Positions 1 through 26,064 are shown, counted from the stretch's first letter. The stretch: DNA of 64,000 nt from Devosia marina (GCF_009758415.1 NZ_WQRF01000002.1:1-64000), one strand, 5' to 3'. Notes: generated by a model from the letters alone, not told the origin. A program made the numbers and translations.

Positions 1-191
1 CCGGCCTCCGCATCGGCGACGCCTGCTCCCGTCTCTCCTCCACCAACGAACCCATCGGCTTTATCGCCGAAGCCGTCGGCTATCCCTCGCTGGCCAACTT
101 CAACCGCCAGTTTAAAGCCCAGCGTGGAATGACGCCCCGGGCCTATAGGGCCATATTCCGTCACGCATCAACACAAAGCCGGCAAAATTAG
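1..191 (+). CDS. AraC-family transcriptional regulator, C-terminal fragment
   Basis: This is the 3' end of a gene that begins before the window; the frame is open from base 3 and stops with TAG at 189-191. The visible 62 residues contain the second helix-turn-helix of an AraC/XylS DNA-binding domain: the run IGFIAEAVGYPSLANFNRQF followed by a basic stretch and TPRAYR is the family signature. The protein would bind DNA and probably regulates a neighbouring gene, but the ligand-binding N-terminus is outside the window, so its target cannot be assigned. Confidence 0.9.
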   Translation, partial: GLRIGDACSRLSSTNEPIGFIAEAVGYPSLANFNRQFKAQRGMTPRAYRAIFRHASTQSRQN

Positions 192-880
192 CTTGCAGGA
201 AACTCATGCCTGCACTCTGTCCAAACGGACTTACGATTTGGTTGCGGAACGGCAGGTTTCGGGTGATCACCAAATCGTCGCGGCCGCAATGGGGTTGCGT
301 TTCTGCCAATCGGCAACGCGCCCATTTCTGCCGTTCAGTTTGCTTGGCAATTCGTGAAAGCTGCCATCCCGATTTAGTGATGAGTGTCATCGGAGGGCGG
401 CTAGCGAACCGTTTCGACTTAGCCAGCAGCCTGAGAAAAATTATGCTGCCGGCTCGAAACCATCGTGATGCTCCAAGGCAGACTGACGAGCAGCGACCAA
501 AGTCTCTTCAACGGACTCGCCACATTGGGACTTTTTGGCGGCGATTCACTTCTGCCGCTGCCGCAGCCGCTGTCGCCGATGACGACGTCCCGGCCCATGC
601 CCGAATAACCTCGAGGCCCGGCTTCATCCGCTCGGTTCATTCACCGCTGGGTAAGTCGGAGAGATTTTCCTCTGCATACGTGGCGGCTTCATAAGCTCGG
701 TGCCGGTGCGGGGTTAGCGCAGAATCTATGACTTCTGCTCTGCCGGCGACCTGAAAACTGCCGTCTGGCCTGCGACGGCATTCCAGCCCCACGGCATGGT
801 GACGGAGATAAAGTGCTCCACCCAACTGCTGTCAGGGGCTGGGGGCCGGCCAACTTTGCCTGAACAAGCGCTGCACAAAC
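192..880. other. Intergenic region with no confident gene
   Basis: About 690 bases separate the AraC fragment from the first catabolic promoter. Open frames exist on both strands but have mixed codon use, weak start sites and no recognised domain. The most protein-like is a minus-strand frame at 637-825, 62 codons from a TTG, with segments such as PHRHRAYEAATYAEENL. It is followed in another frame by a short tail ending in EHHDGFEPAA. These could be remnants of a decayed gene, but I cannot name it. Confidence 0.5.
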
Positions 881-6193: not shown

Positions 6194-6738
6194 CCGTTGC
6201 ACAACAGTATTTTACGCGGTTGCTTGCCGCCATCGAGGCGCGGAAGGACGAGCTCGACGCGCTCGACGCAGCGCTGGGCGATGGCGATCACGGCACAACG
6301 ATGCTGCGCGGCCTCACCAAGGCTGCGCAAGCCGAGTCGGGTATGGGCGCCAAGGCCTTCATGCGCGCTTCGGGCGGGGCAGCAGGCACGCTGTTCGGTC
6401 TAGTACTGATTGCCATCGAGAGACACCTCATCTCTGACGCAGACCTGCCCTCCGAACTGGCGCTTGCCGAAGCCCGCATATGCGACCTGGGTCAGGTAAA
6501 ACCCGGCGACAAGAGCATGATAGATGCGCTCTCCCCCGCCGTCGCGGCGTTCAATGGTGGTAATCTGGATGCCGCTATTGAGGCGGCGCGGCAAGGATGC
6601 CAGGCGACTATCGCGCTTGATGCCCGCAGGGGCCGTGCCCAGTATGTCGAGGGCAAGGGCAGGGGGCATCAGGACCCCGGTGCAACCTCAATCTTAATCC
6701 TGTTTGAAGTACTTCGCGAAACCCGGGAAAGCCAATGA
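6190..6738 (+). CDS. dhaL: DhaL-type kinase subunit (ADP/ATP-binding)
   Basis: A 182-residue DhaL domain. The nucleotide/Mg site is seen in LGDGDHGTT and GDKSMIDALSPA, and the family hallmark GRAQYVEGKGRGHQDPGATS lies near the C-terminus. DhaL transfers phosphate to the ketose held covalently on DhaK. No PTS-type DhaM gene is in the window, so ATP is the likely donor, as in ATP-dependent Dha-like kinases. Related kinases in actinobacteria and rhizobia act on erythrulose isomers, so dihydroxyacetone should not be assumed. The start codon overlaps the epimerase stop and the end overlaps dhaK. Confidence 0.9.
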   Translation: MTVAQQYFTRLLAAIEARKDELDALDAALGDGDHGTTMLRGLTKAAQAESGMGAKAFMRASGGAAGTLFGLVLIAIERHLISDADLPSELALAEARICDLGQVKPGDKSMIDALSPAVAAFNGGNLDAAIEAARQGCQATIALDARRGRAQYVEGKGRGHQDPGATSILILFEVLRETRESQ

Positions 6739-12469: not shown

Positions 12470-13522
12470 GTGACCGAAGTCCGGCTCAATGCGGTTCAAA
12501 AGCGATTTGGTGCCTTTACGGCAATCGAATCCATTGATCTCGATATCAAGTCCGGGGAGCTGGTTGCTCTTCTGGGGCCCTCCGGCTGCGGCAAGACGAC
12601 AACGCTGCGCATGATTGCCGGGCTCGAAGCGCCGACAAAAGGAGAAGTTCTGTTCGACGGTCATGACGTTTCTGATGTCGCCGTTCAGAAGCGAAACGTC
12701 GGCATGGTCTTTCAGCGCTACGCGCTGTTTCCCCACATGACAGTCGAAAAGAACGTGACGTTCGGGCTCGATGTGCGGGGTCTCCCCAAGAAGGAGATTA
12801 GCGAACGACTTGAGGAGATTCTTGAGGTCGTTCAGCTCAACAAATTCCGCAAACGTTTCCCCGCGCAGCTGTCAGGCGGGCAGATGCAACGCGTTGCAAT
12901 CGCGCGCACGCTGATCACCAAGCCCTCCGTTCTGATGATGGACGAGCCGCTGGCCAACCTCGACACAAAACTTCGTGGCGAGATGCGGCGCTTTATCCGC
13001 GACCTGCAGAAGCGTCTTGGCATCACTACCATCTTTGTGACTCACGATCAGGTCGAAGCCATGGAGCTGGCGGATCGCGTAGCGGTCATCTTCAACGGCA
13101 AGCTCGCCCAGTTTGGCGCCCCACAAGAGCTCTACCAGCAGCCCAATTCCACTGAGGTCGCCGACTTCATGGGGGCCAGCAACATCTTCAGTGCAAAGTT
13201 GGTGGCTGCCGATCGCGCCGAAACATCCTTTGGAACCATTGATATCATGTCTCAGCCCGGCCTTAAGCCTGGCAACGATGTGTATGTGATGCTGCGCAGC
13301 GAAGGTATCGACCTCTACCCCGAATCCGAGGCGCCCCAAGGTGCCCAAAATCTGATCTCTGGCAAGATCAAGGCGCGCGAGTTCTTCGGTGCGTCTGTTC
13401 AGTATGTCGTCGGTGCTGGAGAGGACATCACCGTCGCCGAGCAGTCCCGTCGTCTGCTTGACGTGGGGCAGCCAGTTGTTCTCTCGGTCCAACCGGACCG
13501 GGTGTGGACTATCGCCCGCTAG
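12470..13522 (+). CDS. ABC transporter ATP-binding protein (MalK/PotA type)
   Basis: A 350-residue ATPase with Walker A GPSGCGKTT, the signature LSGGQMQR, Walker B LMMDEPLANLD and the switch His in FVTHDQ, then a TOBE-like C-terminal regulatory region from about residue 240. It powers uptake through the two permeases at 14988 and 15884. It starts with GTG after AAGGGAGGG and is the first gene after the operator at 12430. The C-terminal domain could carry regulatory or inducer-exclusion functions, which is inference. Confidence 0.93.
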   Translation: MTEVRLNAVQKRFGAFTAIESIDLDIKSGELVALLGPSGCGKTTTLRMIAGLEAPTKGEVLFDGHDVSDVAVQKRNVGMVFQRYALFPHMTVEKNVTFGLDVRGLPKKEISERLEEILEVVQLNKFRKRFPAQLSGGQMQRVAIARTLITKPSVLMMDEPLANLDTKLRGEMRRFIRDLQKRLGITTIFVTHDQVEAMELADRVAVIFNGKLAQFGAPQELYQQPNSTEVADFMGASNIFSAKLVAADRAETSFGTIDIMSQPGLKPGNDVYVMLRSEGIDLYPESEAPQGAQNLISGKIKAREFFGASVQYVVGAGEDITVAEQSRRLLDVGQPVVLSVQPDRVWTIAR

Positions 13523-18684: not shown

Positions 18685-19083
18685 CGGTCTCCTATATTAC
18701 GTTCAGACACCTCGCACTGAAACACACTTCAGCATTGCTTTCCCTGAGCATTGGGGTTGGCCCCAGTTGCTCTCCCGATACGCAAACCACGTAGCCAGCA
18801 TTTCAATAGCAGTCCCAAACGGTGCAGTAGCGGACCATCGTCGATGCGCGCCAAACTGGTCATTTATACAGTCCTTGCGCCCTGCCTATTGCCGTCGGTC
18901 CGCTTTGTTCGACTTCGATCACCGTTCTCTATGGGCCGTTGGGCAGATTGGTCGGCTCATTCGTCTCGGCGTTCTAGCGTGGGCCAGGCACGCCGTTCAC
19001 TATCGCGACCCCGCCGATTGCTTGGGTTAATCTTGACACGCGGCCAAGATTGAACATCGCCTCACAGATTGCGGCGAGACACC
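18685..19083. other. Intergenic region between convergent genes
   Basis: About 400 bases separate the TauE/SafE gene (+) from the DUF805 gene (-). Several short frames exist but none has a good start site, consistent codon use or a recognisable domain. No clear T-tailed hairpin was found for either flank. I see nothing that can be called a gene. Confidence 0.5.
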
Positions 19084-19479
19084 TCAATCCGGGTCATAGC
19101 CGAAGTCACGGTCGTCAAAGGATCTGTCAAAGGACTTGTCAAAGTGCGGTCCATCCGACGAGCGGTGCGAAACGCGTTCCCGGGCAGACTGCCCTGGCCA
19201 AAACAGCAAGATGAACAGGCAGAACAGATTCACGATTGGGACCAGACTGAGCAGGGCCCACCAGCCGCTACGGCCCAGATCATGCCATCTGCGCACCGTA
19301 AAGGACATTGCGACTAGCAAAGATAGCGCGGCCCACAGAAAAAGAGCGGCGTAGAGCCAGAATTCCGGGACGCCTATGCCGGACAGCAAGGCGACCACCA
19401 CATTGACTGCGGTTCCCGCAATCAGCAGACCGACGACCGCAAAGGCGAAGAAAAATCGTCCAATTCGACCCTTAAACAT
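19084..19479 (-). CDS. DUF805-family inner-membrane protein
   Basis: A 131-residue protein with three or four hydrophobic segments. The DUF805 hallmark RRWHDLGRSGWWALL is present around residues 63-77. A polar, Asp/Phe-rich tail of roughly 30 residues follows the last helix. DUF805 proteins (YhaH/YhaI type) have no established biochemical function. It is the last gene in the minus-strand cluster that begins with the LuxR regulator, 139 bases after the M50 protease gene, so it may be either a cluster member or an unrelated neighbour. Confidence 0.85.
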   Translation of the reverse strand: MFKGRIGRFFFAFAVVGLLIAGTAVNVVVALLSGIGVPEFWLYAALFLWAALSLLVAMSFTVRRWHDLGRSGWWALLSLVPIVNLFCLFILLFWPGQSARERVSHRSSDGPHFDKSFDRSFDDRDFGYDPD

Positions 19480-19618
19480 TGTTCCTCCAGATTGTGTGGG
19501 ATTATTGCCGCCGAAACCACTGGCAGTTGCAGGTTAGGTGTATTGGGGCAAACCAGTGCGGGCGCGGTGCGAGCGATCGCATCAAAAAGGGCGTGCCCGC
19601 CGATCTCTGCTAAAGGCA

Positions 19619-21565
19619 TCATGAACTGGCTATGCCCCTGGACAGCACCGAGCCCAGAGCCAACGCCATGCCGGCGACGATCCAAGGGGCGGTCGAAGTG
19701 CCGAGTTGGCTGGAGAACCAGCTACCGGCTGTCACCGCAATGACCAGATAGAAGAAGGCCGAGGTGAGCACGAGATGAAGCAGTGAGAGGCTGAACAGAA
19801 CTGCCAAACCGCGCAAATGCGCTGCAGCACGTGCCTGTCTGTTCCAGCAATCAACCAGGATTTGTCTCAGGGAGAGCTCTGGCGGCAGCGCCAGCAGGTT
19901 CCGCAGTGCCTGGGCGCCATCGTTCTGCCCATTTGGCGCCAAGGCCAACAGCGCCGTTCCGAAATTGACTGTCGACCAGACCCAAATGAAAGGCTGGAGG
20001 GGGCTCGCAGGGGCGTTGGCCGCGACGAGAGCGGCGATGCCCCCGAAGACAATATTTGCCAGTGGACCGGCCAGTGCCACCATCACCCGCTGCCCCGACG
20101 AGGCTATCCAGGTGTCGGACGTGTCCACATAGGCAATGGGATAGAACCAGAACACCCCGATGCCGATGCCGTGGACTGACAGGCCGAACGCCTTCATGGC
20201 CAAGATATGAGCGGCCTCGTGCAACGCCAATGATATGGCGAGAGCCAGAATGCCAGTCGCTAAGTATGGGAGATTCATACCGGTTGGAATGCTTGTCTGG
20301 GTGAGGGTGCTCAAGCCAGTCACCAGCCCAGCCAAGCCCAGGGCAGTCGCCACAATCACCGCAACGGGTCGGGTAACTATTGCGAAAGCTCGATAGAGGC
20401 TTTCGCTGAAATCATCTGCGGCCTGGCCGCGCAGGAGATCGAACGTTAGATAACCGCGACCTCGGCGTTCGGCCTGGCCCTCAAGAGGGCTATCGGATTG
20501 ACTGTCATGCCCCAGGGTTGCGAACCCCGAAGCGAGCAGTTGCTGCACGACGTTGATCACGCCCTGGGGCGAAAAAGTGCCAAACCGGCTCACGGCGCGG
20601 GCAATAATGGTTGTCAGGCGGGTAGAGCCATCCAATTGCTCCCATACGAAGGTTCCGAACTCGGATAGCTGGAAGTACTTGCGCAGCGTGGTGTGCTTGA
20701 GAACAGCAATGGCTTCTCCATCGTCACCCTTCCTGCGGTGCAACTCCACGTTCAGCGACTGTCGCGGGCGGATTCGCAAGGCGACCTGAGACTGAAGATG
20801 TTCGGTTCCCGGCGCCCGCGCGATACGCTCCAGTTGGGAGCGCGATATGGCCAAAACTTCACCGTCTTCCAGCGCAGTCACCGTTGCACGGCGCGGCTCA
20901 CCAGCCAGCAGTGAAACTTCTCCGACGAGAGATCCCGGACCAAGCACCGCAAGCTGTTGTTCGGCCGCAGGTGCCGGGCCCTTGTGGACCGAAAAGGTTC
21001 CAGAGTGGATCAGATAACAGGTGTCGCCTGGACGGCCTTCTTCTACCAGGGCTGTGCCGGTTTTGATCTTGCGCTGCTGAATCTTAGCCGCCAATTCCTG
21101 AAGGGCTGCGGGGCCGACCCCAGCAAACGGGGCCGCCCGCCTGAGCAACAACATGCGCTCACGCAATCCCTCATCCAGCTTGAGCGCGGGGGCGAGCGCA
21201 GAGGCAATGGCCGGATCGGCCAATGCGGCCGTGGGGACGCACAGGGTGGCGCATTCTTCGAGCGCAACAGCAGTCGAGGCGTATCGCCCAGCGCCTTCGG
21301 TTCGCAGACACTCCTCACCGGCGACGTCGGCAAAAGTCAAAAGCGCGATGGGGACGCGATCATCTTCAACCAGAACGCTTTCTTCGATCGTCCCCCAGAT
21401 CGGCAGATGCACAAGATTTGCTGGCTCTCCTTGGGAAAAAATCACCGCACCCGTGTCGTGGCCGCGCACCACCGTCTGTTCCGCGAGGTCCTTGAGTGTC
21501 GCAATCGGCAAGGTGCCGAAGAGATAGCTTTCGCGGAGCAGGTTGACCCGTTCTTCCTGAAACAT
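19619..21565 (-). CDS. Multidomain protein: two cNMP-binding-like domains, PqqD-like domain and M50 membrane metalloprotease
   Basis: A 648-residue protein. Residues 15-120 and 145-250 are two cyclic-nucleotide-binding-like beta barrels; the second keeps the phosphate-binding pattern GEVSLLAGEPRRAT (215-228), while the first is degenerate. Residues 285-348 form a small helical PqqD-like module, the type that recognises leader peptides in RiPP pathways. The C-terminal half has about six transmembrane helices with the M50 zinc motif HEAAH (449-453) and a downstream NDG (Asp549) as probable third zinc ligand. It should be an intramembrane or membrane-associated peptidase, possibly gated by a nucleotide. 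Its start abuts the polyprenyl synthetase stop, so the two are coupled. I infer it cleaves the three small peptides encoded just upstream. Confidence 0.82.
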   Translation of the reverse strand: MFQEERVNLLRESYLFGTLPIATLKDLAEQTVVRGHDTGAVIFSQGEPANLVHLPIWGTIEESVLVEDDRVPIALLTFADVAGEECLRTEGAGRYASTAVALEECATLCVPTAALADPAIASALAPALKLDEGLRERMLLLRRAAPFAGVGPAALQELAAKIQQRKIKTGTALVEEGRPGDTCYLIHSGTFSVHKGPAPAAEQQLAVLGPGSLVGEVSLLAGEPRRATVTALEDGEVLAISRSQLERIARAPGTEHLQSQVALRIRPRQSLNVELHRRKGDDGEAIAVLKHTTLRKYFQLSEFGTFVWEQLDGSTRLTTIIARAVSRFGTFSPQGVINVVQQLLASGFATLGHDSQSDSPLEGQAERRGRGYLTFDLLRGQAADDFSESLYRAFAIVTRPVAVIVATALGLAGLVTGLSTLTQTSIPTGMNLPYLATGILALAISLALHEAAHILAMKAFGLSVHGIGIGVFWFYPIAYVDTSDTWIASSGQRVMVALAGPLANIVFGGIAALVAANAPASPLQPFIWVWSTVNFGTALLALAPNGQNDGAQALRNLLALPPELSLRQILVDCWNRQARAAAHLRGLAVLFSLSLLHLVLTSAFFYLVIAVTAGSWFSSQLGTSTAPWIVAGMALALGSVLSRGIASS

Positions 21566-22609
21566 TCAGCCGGCTCCGGGACGCAAGAGATCTGCGGTCG
21601 TTCTGCTCTCGGAAAGCCTTGCACACATCCTCCGCCAAGCATCCGAACAAGGGAGTTGCCTCAGGGCTTCTTCGCTGCGCGCCAGATGAACCTGGGAGCG
21701 GAAACCAGCGAACAGCAAAGCTCCGGAGTCTACGATGCAGTCCCTCGCAGCCAGTTGCGCGGCACGGTCCGTTCGGGCGTGATCGAGCAAGCGCAACAGA
21801 TCTTCGCGGCCTATCCTGGAGTGCTTTAGCGCGAAGCCGACGGGGAGGGTTCGCGCTCCAGCCGCGAGGTCCCGCGACCAGTCTGGATCGAGCAGGTCCT
21901 GCATGTCGGAGCCCAATTGTCCTGCAACACCGATACCGTGCGCCCAGCCTGCCCAGAGTTCAGCGCAGGCCAAATCGCAGCCGGCATGCAGGGCTGCAAG
22001 GCGTGCATAGAGTCCCATCTGAGCACCGCTTTTGCCCGCAACCGATTCCTCGACAACGTCGAGATTGACGTTGGTGCCACCTATATTTTGAAGATCCAGG
22101 GCCTGCCCTTCGGCGATGTTCAATAGCCCGTCGCCCAAGGCATTGATCAAGGTGGCGCCGCGTTCCGCGCCGCCGGCTTGAAGCAGCAATTTCTGAGGCA
22201 ATGCCGATGGGAACGCGGCAGCGGCAAGCATCAGCGAGCTCTTGCTTGTTTCACCCCACCAGGGGCGTTGGTCGCCATCCTGCAGATCATCCAACAGGTC
22301 GAAACAAAGAAAGAGAAGCCCCGCCACGACGCTGATGGGTGCAGCATCGGCCGGATCCCCGCCATTGGCGCCATGAACGAGAAGCGGAATGAGCAAAGGC
22401 AGATGTGGCGGCCGAGCGGGCTGGAGGTGTTGATCCAGCGCCCCTTCCAGACAACCAAGCAACGGCTTCAACCCTTGGCCAAGGTTGCAGTCTTGCAGCA
22501 AATCTCTCAACTGCCTGACGCTCTGGTCCATGCTTGCGTGGACCTGTTCGGCGACGTCAGGGCAAGCGCGCTCGCAAAGGGTAGCAGCGGTCATGGCGAT
22601 CGGTGCCAC
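21566..22609 (-). CDS. Polyprenyl synthetase-family protein
   Basis: A 347-residue class I isoprenyl diphosphate synthase homologue. The first aspartate-rich motif is DDLQD (107-111), GQALDLQ follows at 168-174, KSGAQ at 193-197 matches the conserved Lys-Thr/Ser region, and the second aspartate motif is SDMQDLLD (234-241). The metal-binding residues look intact. Such enzymes make prenyl diphosphates; ComQ, a relative, instead prenylates the ComX peptide in Bacillus. It begins nine bases after a leader-like peptide gene and abuts the M50 gene, so peptide prenylation or provision of a prenyl donor is plausible but unproven. The start is GTG 22609; ATG 22594 is an alternative. Confidence 0.85.
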   Translation of the reverse strand: MAPIAMTAATLCERACPDVAEQVHASMDQSVRQLRDLLQDCNLGQGLKPLLGCLEGALDQHLQPARPPHLPLLIPLLVHGANGGDPADAAPISVVAGLLFLCFDLLDDLQDGDQRPWWGETSKSSLMLAAAAFPSALPQKLLLQAGGAERGATLINALGDGLLNIAEGQALDLQNIGGTNVNLDVVEESVAGKSGAQMGLYARLAALHAGCDLACAELWAGWAHGIGVAGQLGSDMQDLLDPDWSRDLAAGARTLPVGFALKHSRIGREDLLRLLDHARTDRAAQLAARDCIVDSGALLFAGFRSQVHLARSEEALRQLPCSDAWRRMCARLSESRTTADLLRPGAG

Positions 22610-22618
22610 CCCATGTGC

Positions 22619-22819
22619 CTAGCCACCAAAGCTGGCCTGGCGCAGGAGCTCTTCGTCGCCAGCGGTCAGGTCGAGCTTGTCGAGGGCCTGCATTTCCTCG
22701 TCCGACAGCTCATATCCTTCCTCCGCGAGCGTCGCTTGTGGCGCGGTCTGCATTCTTGCTCGGAACTCGGCGTCGCTCATCCAACGCTCAATTATGGTTT
22801 CGATCTGCGCTTGGCTCAC
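22619..22819 (-). CDS. NHLP-leader-like small peptide 1 (66 aa)
   Basis: A 66-residue acidic peptide beginning SQAQIETIIERWM, with FRARM, EEGYELSDEEMQALDKLDL and the C-terminus QASFGG. It is about 70% identical over its first 50 residues to peptide 2 and clearly related to peptide 3. The helix-rich pattern with a conserved DxxFRxRM, EEG and LxDEE matches nitrile-hydratase-like/Nif11-type RiPP leaders. It stops where such leaders normally end (GG), so there is no separate core with Cys, Ser or Thr. GTG is the start, eight bases after GAGAGGAG. The polyprenyl synthetase gene follows nine bases downstream. Confidence 0.8.
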   Translation of the reverse strand: MSQAQIETIIERWMSDAEFRARMQTAPQATLAEEGYELSDEEMQALDKLDLTAGDEELLRQASFGG

Positions 22820-22839
22820 TCTGTGGTCTCCTCTCATCC

Positions 22840-22878
22840 AGCCCCGCGAACCGCGGGGCTTCGCCTGCCCGAGCAGGC
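22840..22878 (-). other. Tandem stem-loops between two leader-like peptide genes
   Basis: AGCCCCGCG (22840-22848) and CGCGGGGCT (22852-22860) form a perfect 9-bp stem with a 3-base loop. GCCTGC (22863-22868) and GCAGGC (22873-22878) form a second 6-bp stem with a 4-base loop. Both lie in the transcribed gap between peptide 2 and peptide 1, and no T-run follows on the minus strand. They may limit readthrough or protect the upstream peptide message, producing more peptide 2 and 3 than downstream enzymes. Confidence 0.6.
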
Positions 22879-22902
22879 TGTGCAACACTCGCTCTTGAGC
22901 AT

Positions 22903-23103
22903 TTAGCCCGCGAAATTGGCCTGACGAACAAGGTCTTCACCGCTTCCCGAAAGGTCGAGCCGATCCAGAGCCTGCAATTCCTCATCCGACAGTTCATACC
23001 CTTCTTCCGCCACCGTCGCCTTGGGGGCGGCCCGCATTCTTTCGCGGAATGCGGCGTCGTTCATCCAACGCTCAATTATGGTCTCGATCTGCGCTTGGCT
23101 CAT
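22903..23103 (-). CDS. NHLP-leader-like small peptide 2 (66 aa)
   Basis: A 66-residue peptide starting SQAQIETIIERWM and ending RQANFAG. It shares with peptide 1 the motifs DxxFRERM, AEEGYELSDEELQALD and LDL, and has an ATG start preceded by a strong GGGAGGGGG ribosome site. It has one Trp (residue 13), no Cys and no hydrophobic core segment. The conserved N-terminal half looks like a leader recognised by a PqqD-type domain. The short C-terminal tail ending Asn-Phe-Ala-Gly is the only region that could serve as a product. Confidence 0.82.
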   Translation of the reverse strand: MSQAQIETIIERWMNDAAFRERMRAAPKATVAEEGYELSDEELQALDRLDLSGSGEDLVRQANFAG

Positions 23104-23185
23104 TGTTGCCCCCTCCCCAGGGTCCAGGTTTTATCGGTCGCGCCAGTATTTCTCGGGTCCAGCTGTGCCTGGCTCAACACCGCCT

Positions 23186-23383
23186 TCAGGCGAAATTGGC
23201 CATACCGGCCAGTTCGTCATCCGATTGGTTGAGGTCGAGCGCAGCCAGGGCCCGCTGCTCTTCGTCATCAAGAACGAACCCCTCTTCCTGAGCGGTCTGA
23301 ACCGGCGCCGAGCGCATGCGGTCGCGAAAAGCCTTGTCTTCCATCCATCTTGCGATCAATGCCTCGACTTGTTGGCTCGCCAT
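23186..23383 (-). CDS. NHLP-leader-like small peptide 3 (65 aa)
   Basis: A 65-residue peptide, the most divergent of the three. It keeps the Arg-Trp-Met at residues 12-14, DKAFRDRM, EEGFVLDDEEQRALAALDL and ends GMANFA. An excellent GGGAGGAGGG precedes the ATG. It is the first of three in-line paralogues, separated by 82-83 bases, which implies duplication within the operon. All three share an ASF/ANF near the C-terminus, suggesting this tail matters for processing or function. Confidence 0.82.
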   Translation of the reverse strand: MASQQVEALIARWMEDKAFRDRMRSAPVQTAQEEGFVLDDEEQRALAALDLNQSDDELAGMANFA

Positions 23384-23422
23384 GACAGTCCCTCCTCCCT
23401 TGCTTGTGCCGGATCTTTCTGG

Positions 23423-23776
23423 TCAGGATTTCTGGTCGACTATCTTGAGCTCTGCGGCGACCATGCGAAGATCGCGGTCTTGCCAGCTCAGCGAATAGGC
23501 GATCTGAAAAACTCCCTCGGCGCCGGTGTCGATAAGCGCGCTGCACTGGCGCTGCTGGGCCGCCTTGTCGAAGCTAATCTCCTCGACCTCATCAAGCTGA
23601 TCGAGTTGCACATCAAAGTTCTCGTCGATGATCTGGCTGACAAGCCGGGCAGCGTCCTCGCTCTCGCACTGGGGTAACTGCACTCCACCGAAGAGTCCGC
23701 TGGCGATCTGGATCATGCTCGCGATCCCGATCACCGCGCTCGCCACCGCGACAACAATCTTGACAGCGTTGTTCAT
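23423..23776 (-). CDS. Small membrane-anchored or secreted protein of unknown function
   Basis: A 117-residue protein with a hydrophobic N-terminal segment (residues 5-30) serving as a signal anchor or signal peptide, followed by a polar domain rich in Asp, Gln and Glu with two cysteines (37 and 78). I do not recognise the family. The ATG overlaps the TAA of the ankyrin gene (TAATG), so the two are co-translated and probably act in the same compartment. Peptide 3 follows 39 bases later. A role at the cell envelope, such as display or immunity, is speculation. Confidence 0.7.
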   Translation of the reverse strand: MNNAVKIVVAVASAVIGIASMIQIASGLFGGVQLPQCESEDAARLVSQIIDENFDVQLDQLDEVEEISFDKAAQQRQCSALIDTGAEGVFQIAYSLSWQDRDLRMVAAELKIVDQKS

Positions 23777-24513
23777 TATTGCCCGCCCCACGGTCGGAAT
23801 TCGTTGGTGCAGGCGGTCACGTGGCCATTGACGCAGCTTTCGTGGCACATGGAGCACTGCGTCATGCAGCTGTAGTCGGTCACCCACTGGAAGTTCCCGG
23901 TGAAATAGCCGCAGGTGCTCTGGCAGGATGTATACATCTGCTCGCAGGTCTTTGGCGCTTCGGAGGTCGCCGCTTCCCACGCAGTGGTATCCTGCCCGCT
24001 GGAGAAGAATTCAGAGATTGCCTGGCAATCAGCGACATCGGTGCTCGGTTCACACAACCCGGTTCCGATCTCGGGTTCGTCGCACTCCCCGTCGTTCACA
24101 TATGGGCAAGTTGGGGCAGAAGCGGCGCCGATGTCGGCCGCCGCGCCCTGTGTCGCGGTCACCGTGCCTGTCAGCGCATATTCAATGTCTTCATAGCCAT
24201 GAAGACGGGCAAGGTCCGCCGCGGTATATCCGCTGTCGTCAACCGCGTAGCGGTCGGCACCCAGTTGCAACAATAGCTGAACCGTTTGCAGGCACTCTCC
24301 AAATGCCGCGTTGATCAGCGGTGTATGGCCTCCGGTGCTGCGCGCTTCTATGCTGACACCGCGGTTCAACAGTTCCAGTGTCGTGACGCTGTCACAGGAA
24401 CGCGCGGCGTCCAGCAGTTGCATTTCTTCGATTGTGGCCGACCGGGCCGGAACAACCATGATCATGATTGCCAGAGCCATCGTTGTCAGCCAGCCAAGTA
24501 CCGCCCGCACCAT
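23776..24513 (-). CDS. Secreted ankyrin-repeat, cysteine-rich protein
   Basis: A 245-residue protein with a signal peptide (cleavage near ARS-A, residue 25), then about three ankyrin repeats (residues 28-115; HTPLINAAFGECLQTVQLLL and GYTAADLARLHGYEDI are clear). A Cys-rich C-terminal part follows: it includes CPYVNDGECDEPEIGTGLC, a disulfide motif seen in secreted bacterial proteins, and then four CxxxC-like clusters. It is presumably periplasmic or outer-surface and disulfide-bonded. It lies first after the LuxR regulator and is coupled to the small anchored protein, so it probably belongs to the peptide system, perhaps as a partner or protective factor. Confidence 0.8.
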   Translation of the reverse strand: MVRAVLGWLTTMALAIMIMVVPARSATIEEMQLLDAARSCDSVTTLELLNRGVSIEARSTGGHTPLINAAFGECLQTVQLLLQLGADRYAVDDSGYTAADLARLHGYEDIEYALTGTVTATQGAAADIGAASAPTCPYVNDGECDEPEIGTGLCEPSTDVADCQAISEFFSSGQDTTAWEAATSEAPKTCEQMYTSCQSTCGYFTGNFQWVTDYSCMTQCSMCHESCVNGHVTACTNEFRPWGGQ

Positions 24514-24642
24514 CCCCCCAATGCTTCGTGTCGTTGGATCTTGTGGGCCAGCTAGGCCTCCGAGCTATCGAAGCATGGCGAAACCTGTCTCGAAAGTGTC
24601 GTTTGCGACACCTGAGTGTGGGGCGCGCGCCGACGTGGAATC

Positions 24643-25389
24643 CTAGATCTTCAGCAGACCGGCAGCGATTGCCTTGGCAACGGCTTGCACCCGCGTCTTC
24701 ACGTCCAGCTTCGCCATCGCGGAACCGACATGTTTGCGAACAGTCCGCTCGGTTATCCCCAATATGAGGGCGATCTCCTCGGACGTCTTGCCATAGGCGG
24801 ACCAGCGCAGCGTCTCAAGTTCACGCTCGCTTAGGGGCGCATCCGCTGCCAGTTCCTGAGCAGCAAGTTCTTCGGACCGCTGATGGGCAAGAAGCGCGAC
24901 GAGCGAAATGCTGGCCATGACACCGAACTTTTTTTGCTCCCATAGGTCAGCGGGAAGCGCGGTGGCAGCGCTCACCATGCCAAAGCGCCCAAAGGGCGAG
25001 TGCATTGGCACCACGATACCTTTTTTGAACGGAAACATGGTTTCCATTTCCTGCTGCTCGGGCAGCAGCGGTGGTGTGCAAAACACGTCCTCGAAAAAGA
25101 ATGGCGTGACGCGCACCAGTCCAGCAGTCACCAGCCGGTCAGTGCGCTGATATCCGCGTTCGACATAGCGCTGTAACCAGGCGGGATCCATATTGGTCCA
25201 AAAGCGCTCCACCGTTGGACCTTCGCCAGCCACCATGCGACCAGCACCGTAATTGTATGTTCCAACATCCAGTGACCTCATGGCCGCTGCGAACTTCGCC
25301 TCAAGCGCGCTTTGATCTGACGCGGCGCGGATCTCGCAGAAAAACTTCTCGATCAATTTCGCCTGACTTATCCATAATAACAGCGCCAC
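24643..25389 (-). CDS. LuxR-family quorum-sensing-type transcriptional regulator
   Basis: A 248-residue protein with an N-terminal autoinducer-binding-like domain (about residues 10-165; conserved Trp/Tyr residues in FWTNMDPAWLQRY and PFGRFG) and a C-terminal LuxR/GerE helix-turn-helix (185-245; LSERELETLRWSAYGKTSEE and ITERTVRKHVGSAMAKL). No LuxI synthase is in the window, so it may be a solo receiver. It is the first gene of a co-directional set leading to the leader-like peptides, separated from the next gene by 129 bases. The start is GTG at 25389 with no strong ribosome site, so the true start is uncertain. Confidence 0.88.
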   Translation of the reverse strand: MALLLWISQAKLIEKFFCEIRAASDQSALEAKFAAAMRSLDVGTYNYGAGRMVAGEGPTVERFWTNMDPAWLQRYVERGYQRTDRLVTAGLVRVTPFFFEDVFCTPPLLPEQQEMETMFPFKKGIVVPMHSPFGRFGMVSAATALPADLWEQKKFGVMASISLVALLAHQRSEELAAQELAADAPLSERELETLRWSAYGKTSEEIALILGITERTVRKHVGSAMAKLDVKTRVQAVAKAIAAGLLKI

Positions 25390-26064
25390 CGCGCTAACAG
25401 ATCTATCGCATAGCTATCTATATACTGTTTCCAGTCATGCTTAAGGATGCCGAGCGTGGCTATCAGCGCCCTTGGTTACCCAGGACACTGGAACAACCGC
25501 GCAGCACGGATCATCGCAGCGGTTGCACGGCCGAACGGTCGGCCAGGCGCAGTAATCAACGATACAGTGCGGCTGACCTGGGGTTCGATCAAGGGGGCGT
25601 TGGAGCAGGTCCGGCAGTGTGACCGAACATTCGGGCATGAAAACAAAACCGATTCTCGCCAGAACCATTGTACTGTGCCGCCCAAGCTCGGCCCCGTTCG
25701 TTCCCCAGACTTTGCCGGCGAAGCACTTACGGGCGAAGTCTGCCCATGCCGTTGGCCGGATTTGGACCATTCGTATCACCCGTCTCCGCCCGACAACGTC
25801 TGCGATGCAATCAAGATCAAGGGTAGCTATTCGCCCGTCAGCGCTAAACAGTTGCCAGTCAGCAAGCGGCCCCCTTATGGTCATTAGCCGAGCTCGGTGG
25901 AAGGCAGATTAGGGGCCGTTTTCTGCCGGTCTCCTTCTGATAATGGAGCTTCGAATAGCGGCGCTTATTCAGTTTGTGCCTAATCCTCAGATCCGCCCAA
26001 AGATTTTGGCTAGGTTCAGTGCATTCTTGTGCCGCCTGACGCCTCGAGAGGAGGTTTACGGGAT
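25390..26064. other. Intergenic region with no confident gene
   Basis: About 675 bases between the LuxR gene and the end of the peptide-type ABC operon. Overlapping frames of about 146 codons exist on both strands (25441-25887), but neither has a recognised domain, a convincing ribosome site or typical codon use. The stretch 25390-25440 is A/T-rich and probably contains the promoter of the LuxR operon. A degraded gene is possible. Confidence 0.5.

Follow-up and report, generated by a model that had tools for sequence, protein, structure and literature searches.

We report a cassette of nine genes in Devosia marina that we judge, with the arguments for and against in rough balance, to encode an orphan, self-contained and horizontally moving RiPP-type pathway under a LuxR solo, working by the steps proposed below. 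The genes occupy positions 19084-25389 on the minus strand of the window, the 64,000-nt stretch of DNA analyzed here (Table 1). An earlier interpretation made from the DNA without database searches (the sequence-only reading) held that this exact gene set is not known to match any characterised system, and our literature searches likewise found no described cluster with this set. As it also stated, no YcaO, LanM or radical-SAM enzyme is encoded among the nine genes.

Gene content and layout of the cassette

All nine genes lie where the sequence-only reading had placed them, and family matches support all but the small anchored protein, for which we found no Pfam or NCBIfam match with a longer reading of the ORF tested. 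The core genes are tightly packed: the ankyrin and small-protein genes overlap by 1 nt, gaps of 39, 82 and 83 nt precede p1, p2 and p3, respectively, p3 is followed after 9 nt by the synthetase gene, and the synthetase and M50 genes adjoin with a gap of 0 nt. The LuxR gene is set off from the ankyrin gene by 129 nt, and the downstream DUF805 gene from the M50 gene by 139 nt. Because these gaps separate both genes from the packed core, each may have its own promoter; promoter and terminator scans gave results no better than chance. The DUF805 gene may be a passenger, though it lies within the transferred block described below. The RiPP context is provided by the gene for the PqqD-bearing protease (PF05402, 26.7 bits; cut-off 23.4), which lies 1.1-1.6 kb from the peptide genes. 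No dedicated exporter gene was found in the cassette.

Table 1. Features of the cassette, in window coordinates.
Feature	Position	Strand	Supporting detail
LuxR-type regulator with autoinducer-binding domain, GTG start	24643..25389	-	PF03472 (Autoind_bind) 63.6 bits; PF00196 (GerE) 59.8 bits
Inverted repeat, candidate LuxR-type operator	24596..24611	.	perfect GTGTCG-N4-CGACAC
Ankyrin-repeat protein, secreted/periplasmic, Cys-rich C-terminus, 245 aa	23776..24513	-	PF12796 28.7 bits/PF13637; N-terminal hydrophobic segment 1-24
Small membrane-anchored protein, 117 aa	23423..23776	-	hydrophobic N-terminus; dN/dS 0.11
Precursor-like peptide p1, 65 aa	23186..23383	-	NF038399 49.2 bits; dN/dS 0.08
Precursor-like peptide p2, 66 aa	22903..23103	-	NF038399 58.6 bits; predicted 5-helix fold
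Precursor-like peptide p3, 66 aa, GTG start	22619..22819	-	NF038399 58.5 bits
Divergent polyprenyl-synthetase homologue, 347 aa	21566..22609	-	PF00348 38.0 bits, cut-off 27; FARM DDLQD 107-111, pseudo-SARM SDMQD 234-238
CNB-CNB-PqqD-M50 membrane protein, 648 aa	19619..21565	-	PF00027, PF05402, PF02163; HEAAH 449-453, NDG 548-550
DUF805 membrane protein, 131 aa	19084..19479	-	PF05656 61.5 bits; identical protein in D. subaequoris
Whole transferred cassette, ~7,000 bases	18846..25880	.	ends are the points where similarity to D. subaequoris stops

The regulator is apparently a LuxR solo. No match to an AHL synthase (luxI) was found within the window, and the one convincing luxI of the genome lies on a different contig, paired with its own second luxR. 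Measured against this luxI-paired LuxR, two of the usual ligand-pocket residues are replaced in the cassette protein, Pro by Arg and Trp by Phe. Given these results, the quorum regulation put forward in the sequence-only reading was not borne out. A perfect inverted repeat, GTGTCGCAAACGACAC, sits in the gap before the ankyrin gene; its exact pattern occurs at only two sites in the D. marina genome and at a single site, identically placed within the cassette, in D. subaequoris, and we regard it as a candidate operator only.

By eye, a Cys-rich stretch of the ankyrin protein (CPYVNDGECDEP...DC) resembles a Notch-type LNR repeat, with no family match. A defence system was also considered and rejected, as PADLOC matches were restricted to CNB, ankyrin and HTH regions.

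Precursor-like peptides, synthetase homologue and membrane protease

The three paralogous leader-type peptides described in the sequence-only reading all exceed the curated cut-off (40 bits) of NF038399, the NCBIfam family of Os1348-type NHLP-clan RiPP precursors (Table 1), which supports that description. The predicted structure of p2 comprises five helices (pLDDT 80), and its top Foldseek match was Os1348 (6lk7; probability 0.90, TM 0.64-0.66, with a weak E-value of 0.45), followed by a proteusin NHLP precursor and the borosin precursor SonA, at fair probabilities and weak E-values. In an alignment of the peptides from both Devosia copies (six sequences, 66 columns), 27/51 leader columns were invariant vs 3/15 in the tail (Fisher p = 0.038; six peptides), and the peptides are predicted to consist of a conserved helical leader (approximately residues 1-51) and a variable tail. 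The sole tryptophan, W13, is invariant in 6/6 peptides and falls in the first leader helix. No Trp or Cys occurs in the tails of the six aligned peptides, and no Trp after residue 13; ComX-type prenylation is therefore not directly supported, and the prenylated peptide anticipated by the sequence-only reading did not find confirmation. The C-termini read FAG, FGG or FA, and the peptides stop just past a conserved A-[NS]-F motif.

The polyprenyl-synthetase homologue is the third and weakest PF00348 member of the genome, scoring 38 bits where the two ordinary synthases reach 244 and 176 bits. Phmmer aligned its DDLQD motif without gaps to the FARM DDIMD of 1wy0 and its SDMQD motif to the SARM, while MAFFT placed the FARM less cleanly; since the AlphaFold model was poor (pLDDT 40.5), motif placement rests on sequence alignment. 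In prenyl synthases, the GGKxxRP and post-FARM RR residues bind isopentenyl diphosphate (IPP). Relative to the two housekeeping enzymes, the homologue has lost both of these, its SARM DDxxD has become SDMQD and the GD of the next helix is altered, with Lys193, the QxxD motif and Asp235 kept. These changes rule out an ordinary housekeeping polyprenyl diphosphate synthase, an identity that the sequence-only reading had raised as a test of its proposal and that two other genes of the genome already fill. The motif pattern would fit an enzyme that uses a prenyl donor with an acceptor other than IPP. The best NCBIfam match was to a polyprenyl transferase cargo protein (49.7 bits vs a cut-off of 450).

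The last core gene encodes a membrane protein with matches to cNMP_binding (104.8 bits over two stretches), PqqD (residues 295-344) and Peptidase_M50 (36.3 bits; cut-off 27.2), and with several hydrophobic segments from residue 393 onward. The PqqD recognition domain is fused to the peptidase in one chain, as the sequence-only reading also had it. The HExxH motif is kept, and NDG is a plausible third metal ligand; the phosphate-binding cassette Glu and Arg are present in both CNB domains (GE 83/R94; GE 215/R225). Among curated families, the daptide intramembrane protease NF041824 comes closest (93 bits over residues 272-561; cut-off 300). No other protein with the domain order CNB-CNB-PqqD-M50 appeared in the searches made.

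A second copy in Devosia subaequoris

Two of the 136 genomes searched in the family, those of Devosia marina and Devosia subaequoris DSM 23447, contain NF038399 peptides above the cut-off. Blastn showed 94% identity between the two copies over 18846-25670 and 92% over 25671-25880, with the match ending sharply on both sides, no similarity between the flanks, and different chromosomal insertion sites in the two species. When the wider regions were compared (144 kb vs 107 kb), only two stretches of ~650 bp at ~70% identity matched outside the cassette and a 293-bp piece. One 3-kb housekeeping locus of the same two genomes was 87% identical, vs ~94% for the cassette. Because the two cassettes resemble each other more than the copies of this single background locus do and lie in different surroundings, transfer or recombination as one unit is the simplest reading. 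Joint movement of the leader peptides, the PqqD-protease and the synthetase strengthens the case for one system made by the sequence-only reading.

Between the two species, dN/dS was 0.04 for LuxR, 0.10 for the ankyrin protein, 0.10 for the synthetase, 0.28 for p2 and 0.23 for the M50 protein (p1 and the small protein in Table 1); p3 and DUF805 held too few changes to judge. These values indicate that each gene for which dS could be measured is under purifying selection; at 0.04-0.28 wherever computable, they argue that the cassette genes are no chance ORFs. Synonymous divergence between the copies was ~0.3-0.4 from LuxR to p1 and near 0 for p2, p3 and DUF805, a drop that suggests recombination inside the cassette (18846-25670).

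A dispersed intergenic repeat of ~75 bp occurs several times in both Devosia genomes. Imperfect direct copies bracket the D. subaequoris cassette (locus positions 6238-6313 and 13392-13470), and a 40-bp remnant lies at one cassette edge in the window (25841-25880); folding of the repeat was no better than that of shuffled DNA. Separately, window positions 1-293 match, at 95% identity, a stretch of D. subaequoris that lies 5 kb past its cassette, in the region of an AraC-type regulator gene, in the same relative orientation and with nothing in between common to both genomes.

Relatives of the single components were scarce. No full-length relative of the CNB-PqqD-M50 protein was found among plasmids or 385 genomes of the class; matches in these sets (97 plasmid records, 385 class genomes) were mostly to single CNB domains and some to M50 only, the latter, where examined, being proteins of 720-760 aa with similarity in or near the M50 region. 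Synthetase relatives were absent from plasmids and viral contigs and, in 397 genomes of the order searched at 1e-10, from all but the two Devosia genomes; among 398 genomes of the phylum there was one match, an ordinary octaprenyl-type enzyme. On plasmids, neither the peptide nor the small protein had a match, and the ankyrin protein had one, to ankyrin only. A pattern scan of genome contigs found only D. subaequoris and one unrelated protease, a weak negative given the two patterns used. Since just two close copies are known, co-occurrence of peptides and enzymes carries little statistical power.

Known systems, the proposed pathway and its alternatives

The closest likeness among precursors is to the Os1348 cluster OS3 of Pseudomonas sp. 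Os17 (PMC7726476; PDB 6LK7), which has NF038399 precursors, whose fold the predicted one may resemble, is likewise a small cluster of patchy distribution, and is linked to antibiotic activity in Os17. Its partners, however, are GNAT, HEXXH-domain and SagB-type proteins beside an efflux pump, without the prenyl synthetase, CNB, PqqD or M50 of the cassette. In another proteobacterial locus (1318-2329), we noted an NF038399 peptide (65 bits) followed by an ORF resembling a GNAT acetyltransferase by eye, as in Os17. ComQXPA (PMC5331326) and PalQ (PMC10853753), the latter a second isoprenoid-synthase-fold enzyme acting on Trp, resemble the cassette in placing such an enzyme beside a peptide gene, with the FARM kept and the first Asp of the SARM lost. 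ComQ keeps the FARM and carries [NG]D in its pseudo-SARM, where changing the first residue to Asp lowers or abolishes activity (PMC5331326), whereas the cassette enzyme has SD (first Asp to Ser). Membership in ComQXPA was rejected, as the precursors lack a C-terminal Trp and no histidine kinase or response regulator (comP/comA) is among the nine genes; the cassette further differs in its Gram-negative host, leader-type peptides and RRE. We draw the analogy to the ComQ synthetase in kind only and do not claim membership in ComQ.

The protease recalls several systems. Like the cassette protein, the daptide protease MpaP (NF041824) joins PqqD-like and M50 domains in one chain, but daptide membership was rejected owing to the low score given above, the two extra CNB domains and the lack of any other daptide enzyme. 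Membrane M50 proteases also cut epipeptides and pearlins (EpeP/YydH-LiaK and TglG/TmoG; PMC10885120), and NF058609 scored 31.7 bits; unlike those systems, the cassette has no radical SAM epimerase or PEARL enzyme and carries a CNB and PqqD fusion. TIGR03896, a bacteriocin-type transport-associated protein, places CNB in a bacteriocin-type context, although its match (47 bits; cut-off 161) covered only the CNB region and the border of it. Family 2 encapsulins (PMC8346489) genetically pair a polyprenyl-transferase cargo with a CNB-bearing shell, much as the cassette pairs a synthetase fold with CNB; this reading was dismissed, with no capsid or shell gene among the nine and scores of 49.7 vs 450 and 61.5 vs 400.

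The DNA itself shows what the genes are, that the metal- and Mg-binding motifs are intact and the IPP site is lost, that the cassette moves as one unit and that selection on it is purifying; we infer every functional step of the pathway. The LuxR solo, sensing an AHL-like or other small ligand, would bind GTGTCG-N4-CGACAC and turn on the operon. The three Os1348/NHLP-type precursors would then be made, and their leaders bound by the membrane protease through its PqqD domain. The synthetase homologue may modify the peptide, or a peptide-carried small molecule, with an allylic diphosphate and no IPP elongation, and the M50 site, putatively gated by cyclic nucleotides via the two CNB domains, would cleave the peptide at the membrane for release. 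The ankyrin/Cys-rich and small membrane proteins could act as immunity or release factors outside the cytoplasm. Peptide prenylation is an attractive but the least supported step, and we think it rather unlikely. We are equally doubtful of Gram-negative peptide prenylation as a whole, in which an elongation-less isoprenoid-synthase-fold enzyme would put an allylic group on NHLP-type precursors that a cyclic-nucleotide-gated, RRE-bearing intramembrane protease then releases. Confidence in the mechanism is limited by there being only two, closely related copies.

The lack of an obvious acceptor residue in the peptide tails would suit a joint terpenoid and peptide pathway, in which the small terpenoid or prenyl compound made by the synthetase stays unattached to the peptides, which serve as carrier, chaperone or separate product. 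The synthetase's best family match, far under cut-off, to a transferase cargo protein points the same way, and class I terpene cyclases also depend on a FARM-type motif. However, the synthetase gene is placed between p3 and the PqqD-M50 gene, which suggests a shared substrate, and the cassette holds no other terpene-pathway gene; we consider an unattached product possible, if on the improbable side. Regulated intramembrane proteolysis, with the CNB-PqqD-M50 protein as a cAMP/cGMP-gated site-2-like protease, the peptides as regulators and no secreted natural product, would account for two CNB domains, unusual in a RiPP protease, that both retain the phosphate-cassette residues. We find it quite unlikely: PqqD/RRE and NHLP-clan precursors are hallmarks of RiPP pathways, and the three paralogous peptides have variable tails.

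A pearlin-like scaffold, in which reusable peptides ending FAG/FGG/FA would have a small molecule assembled on their C-terminus and clipped off by the M50 protein, would draw on the A-[NS]-F motif just after which the peptides stop and on the precedent of TglG and TmoG, which remove modified residues from scaffold C-termini (PMC10885120). It is very unlikely, and pearlin membership unsupported: the cassette has no aminoacyl-adding enzyme and PF04738 (PEARL/LanB-type) was unmatched in both Devosia genomes, a weak point since the profile was equally silent in control genomes. Unrelated genes travelling by accident on one mobile block would be compatible with just two known copies and with LuxR and DUF805 lying >125 nt from the core, yet purifying selection on all genes with measurable dS, the tight or overlapping core and the functional coherence of peptide, RRE and protease make such an assembly highly improbable.

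The small size of the cassette makes testing of the proposed RiPP-type pathway under a LuxR solo feasible in a laboratory strain. Bacillus and Paenibacillus already offer examples of ribosomal peptide pathways that include an isoprenoid-synthase-fold enzyme. If our reading is true, an alphaproteobacterial RiPP pathway combining such an enzyme with Os1348-type precursors would widen that chemistry, and a RiPP protease with a built-in cyclic-nucleotide switch would tie peptide release to cell physiology in a new way.
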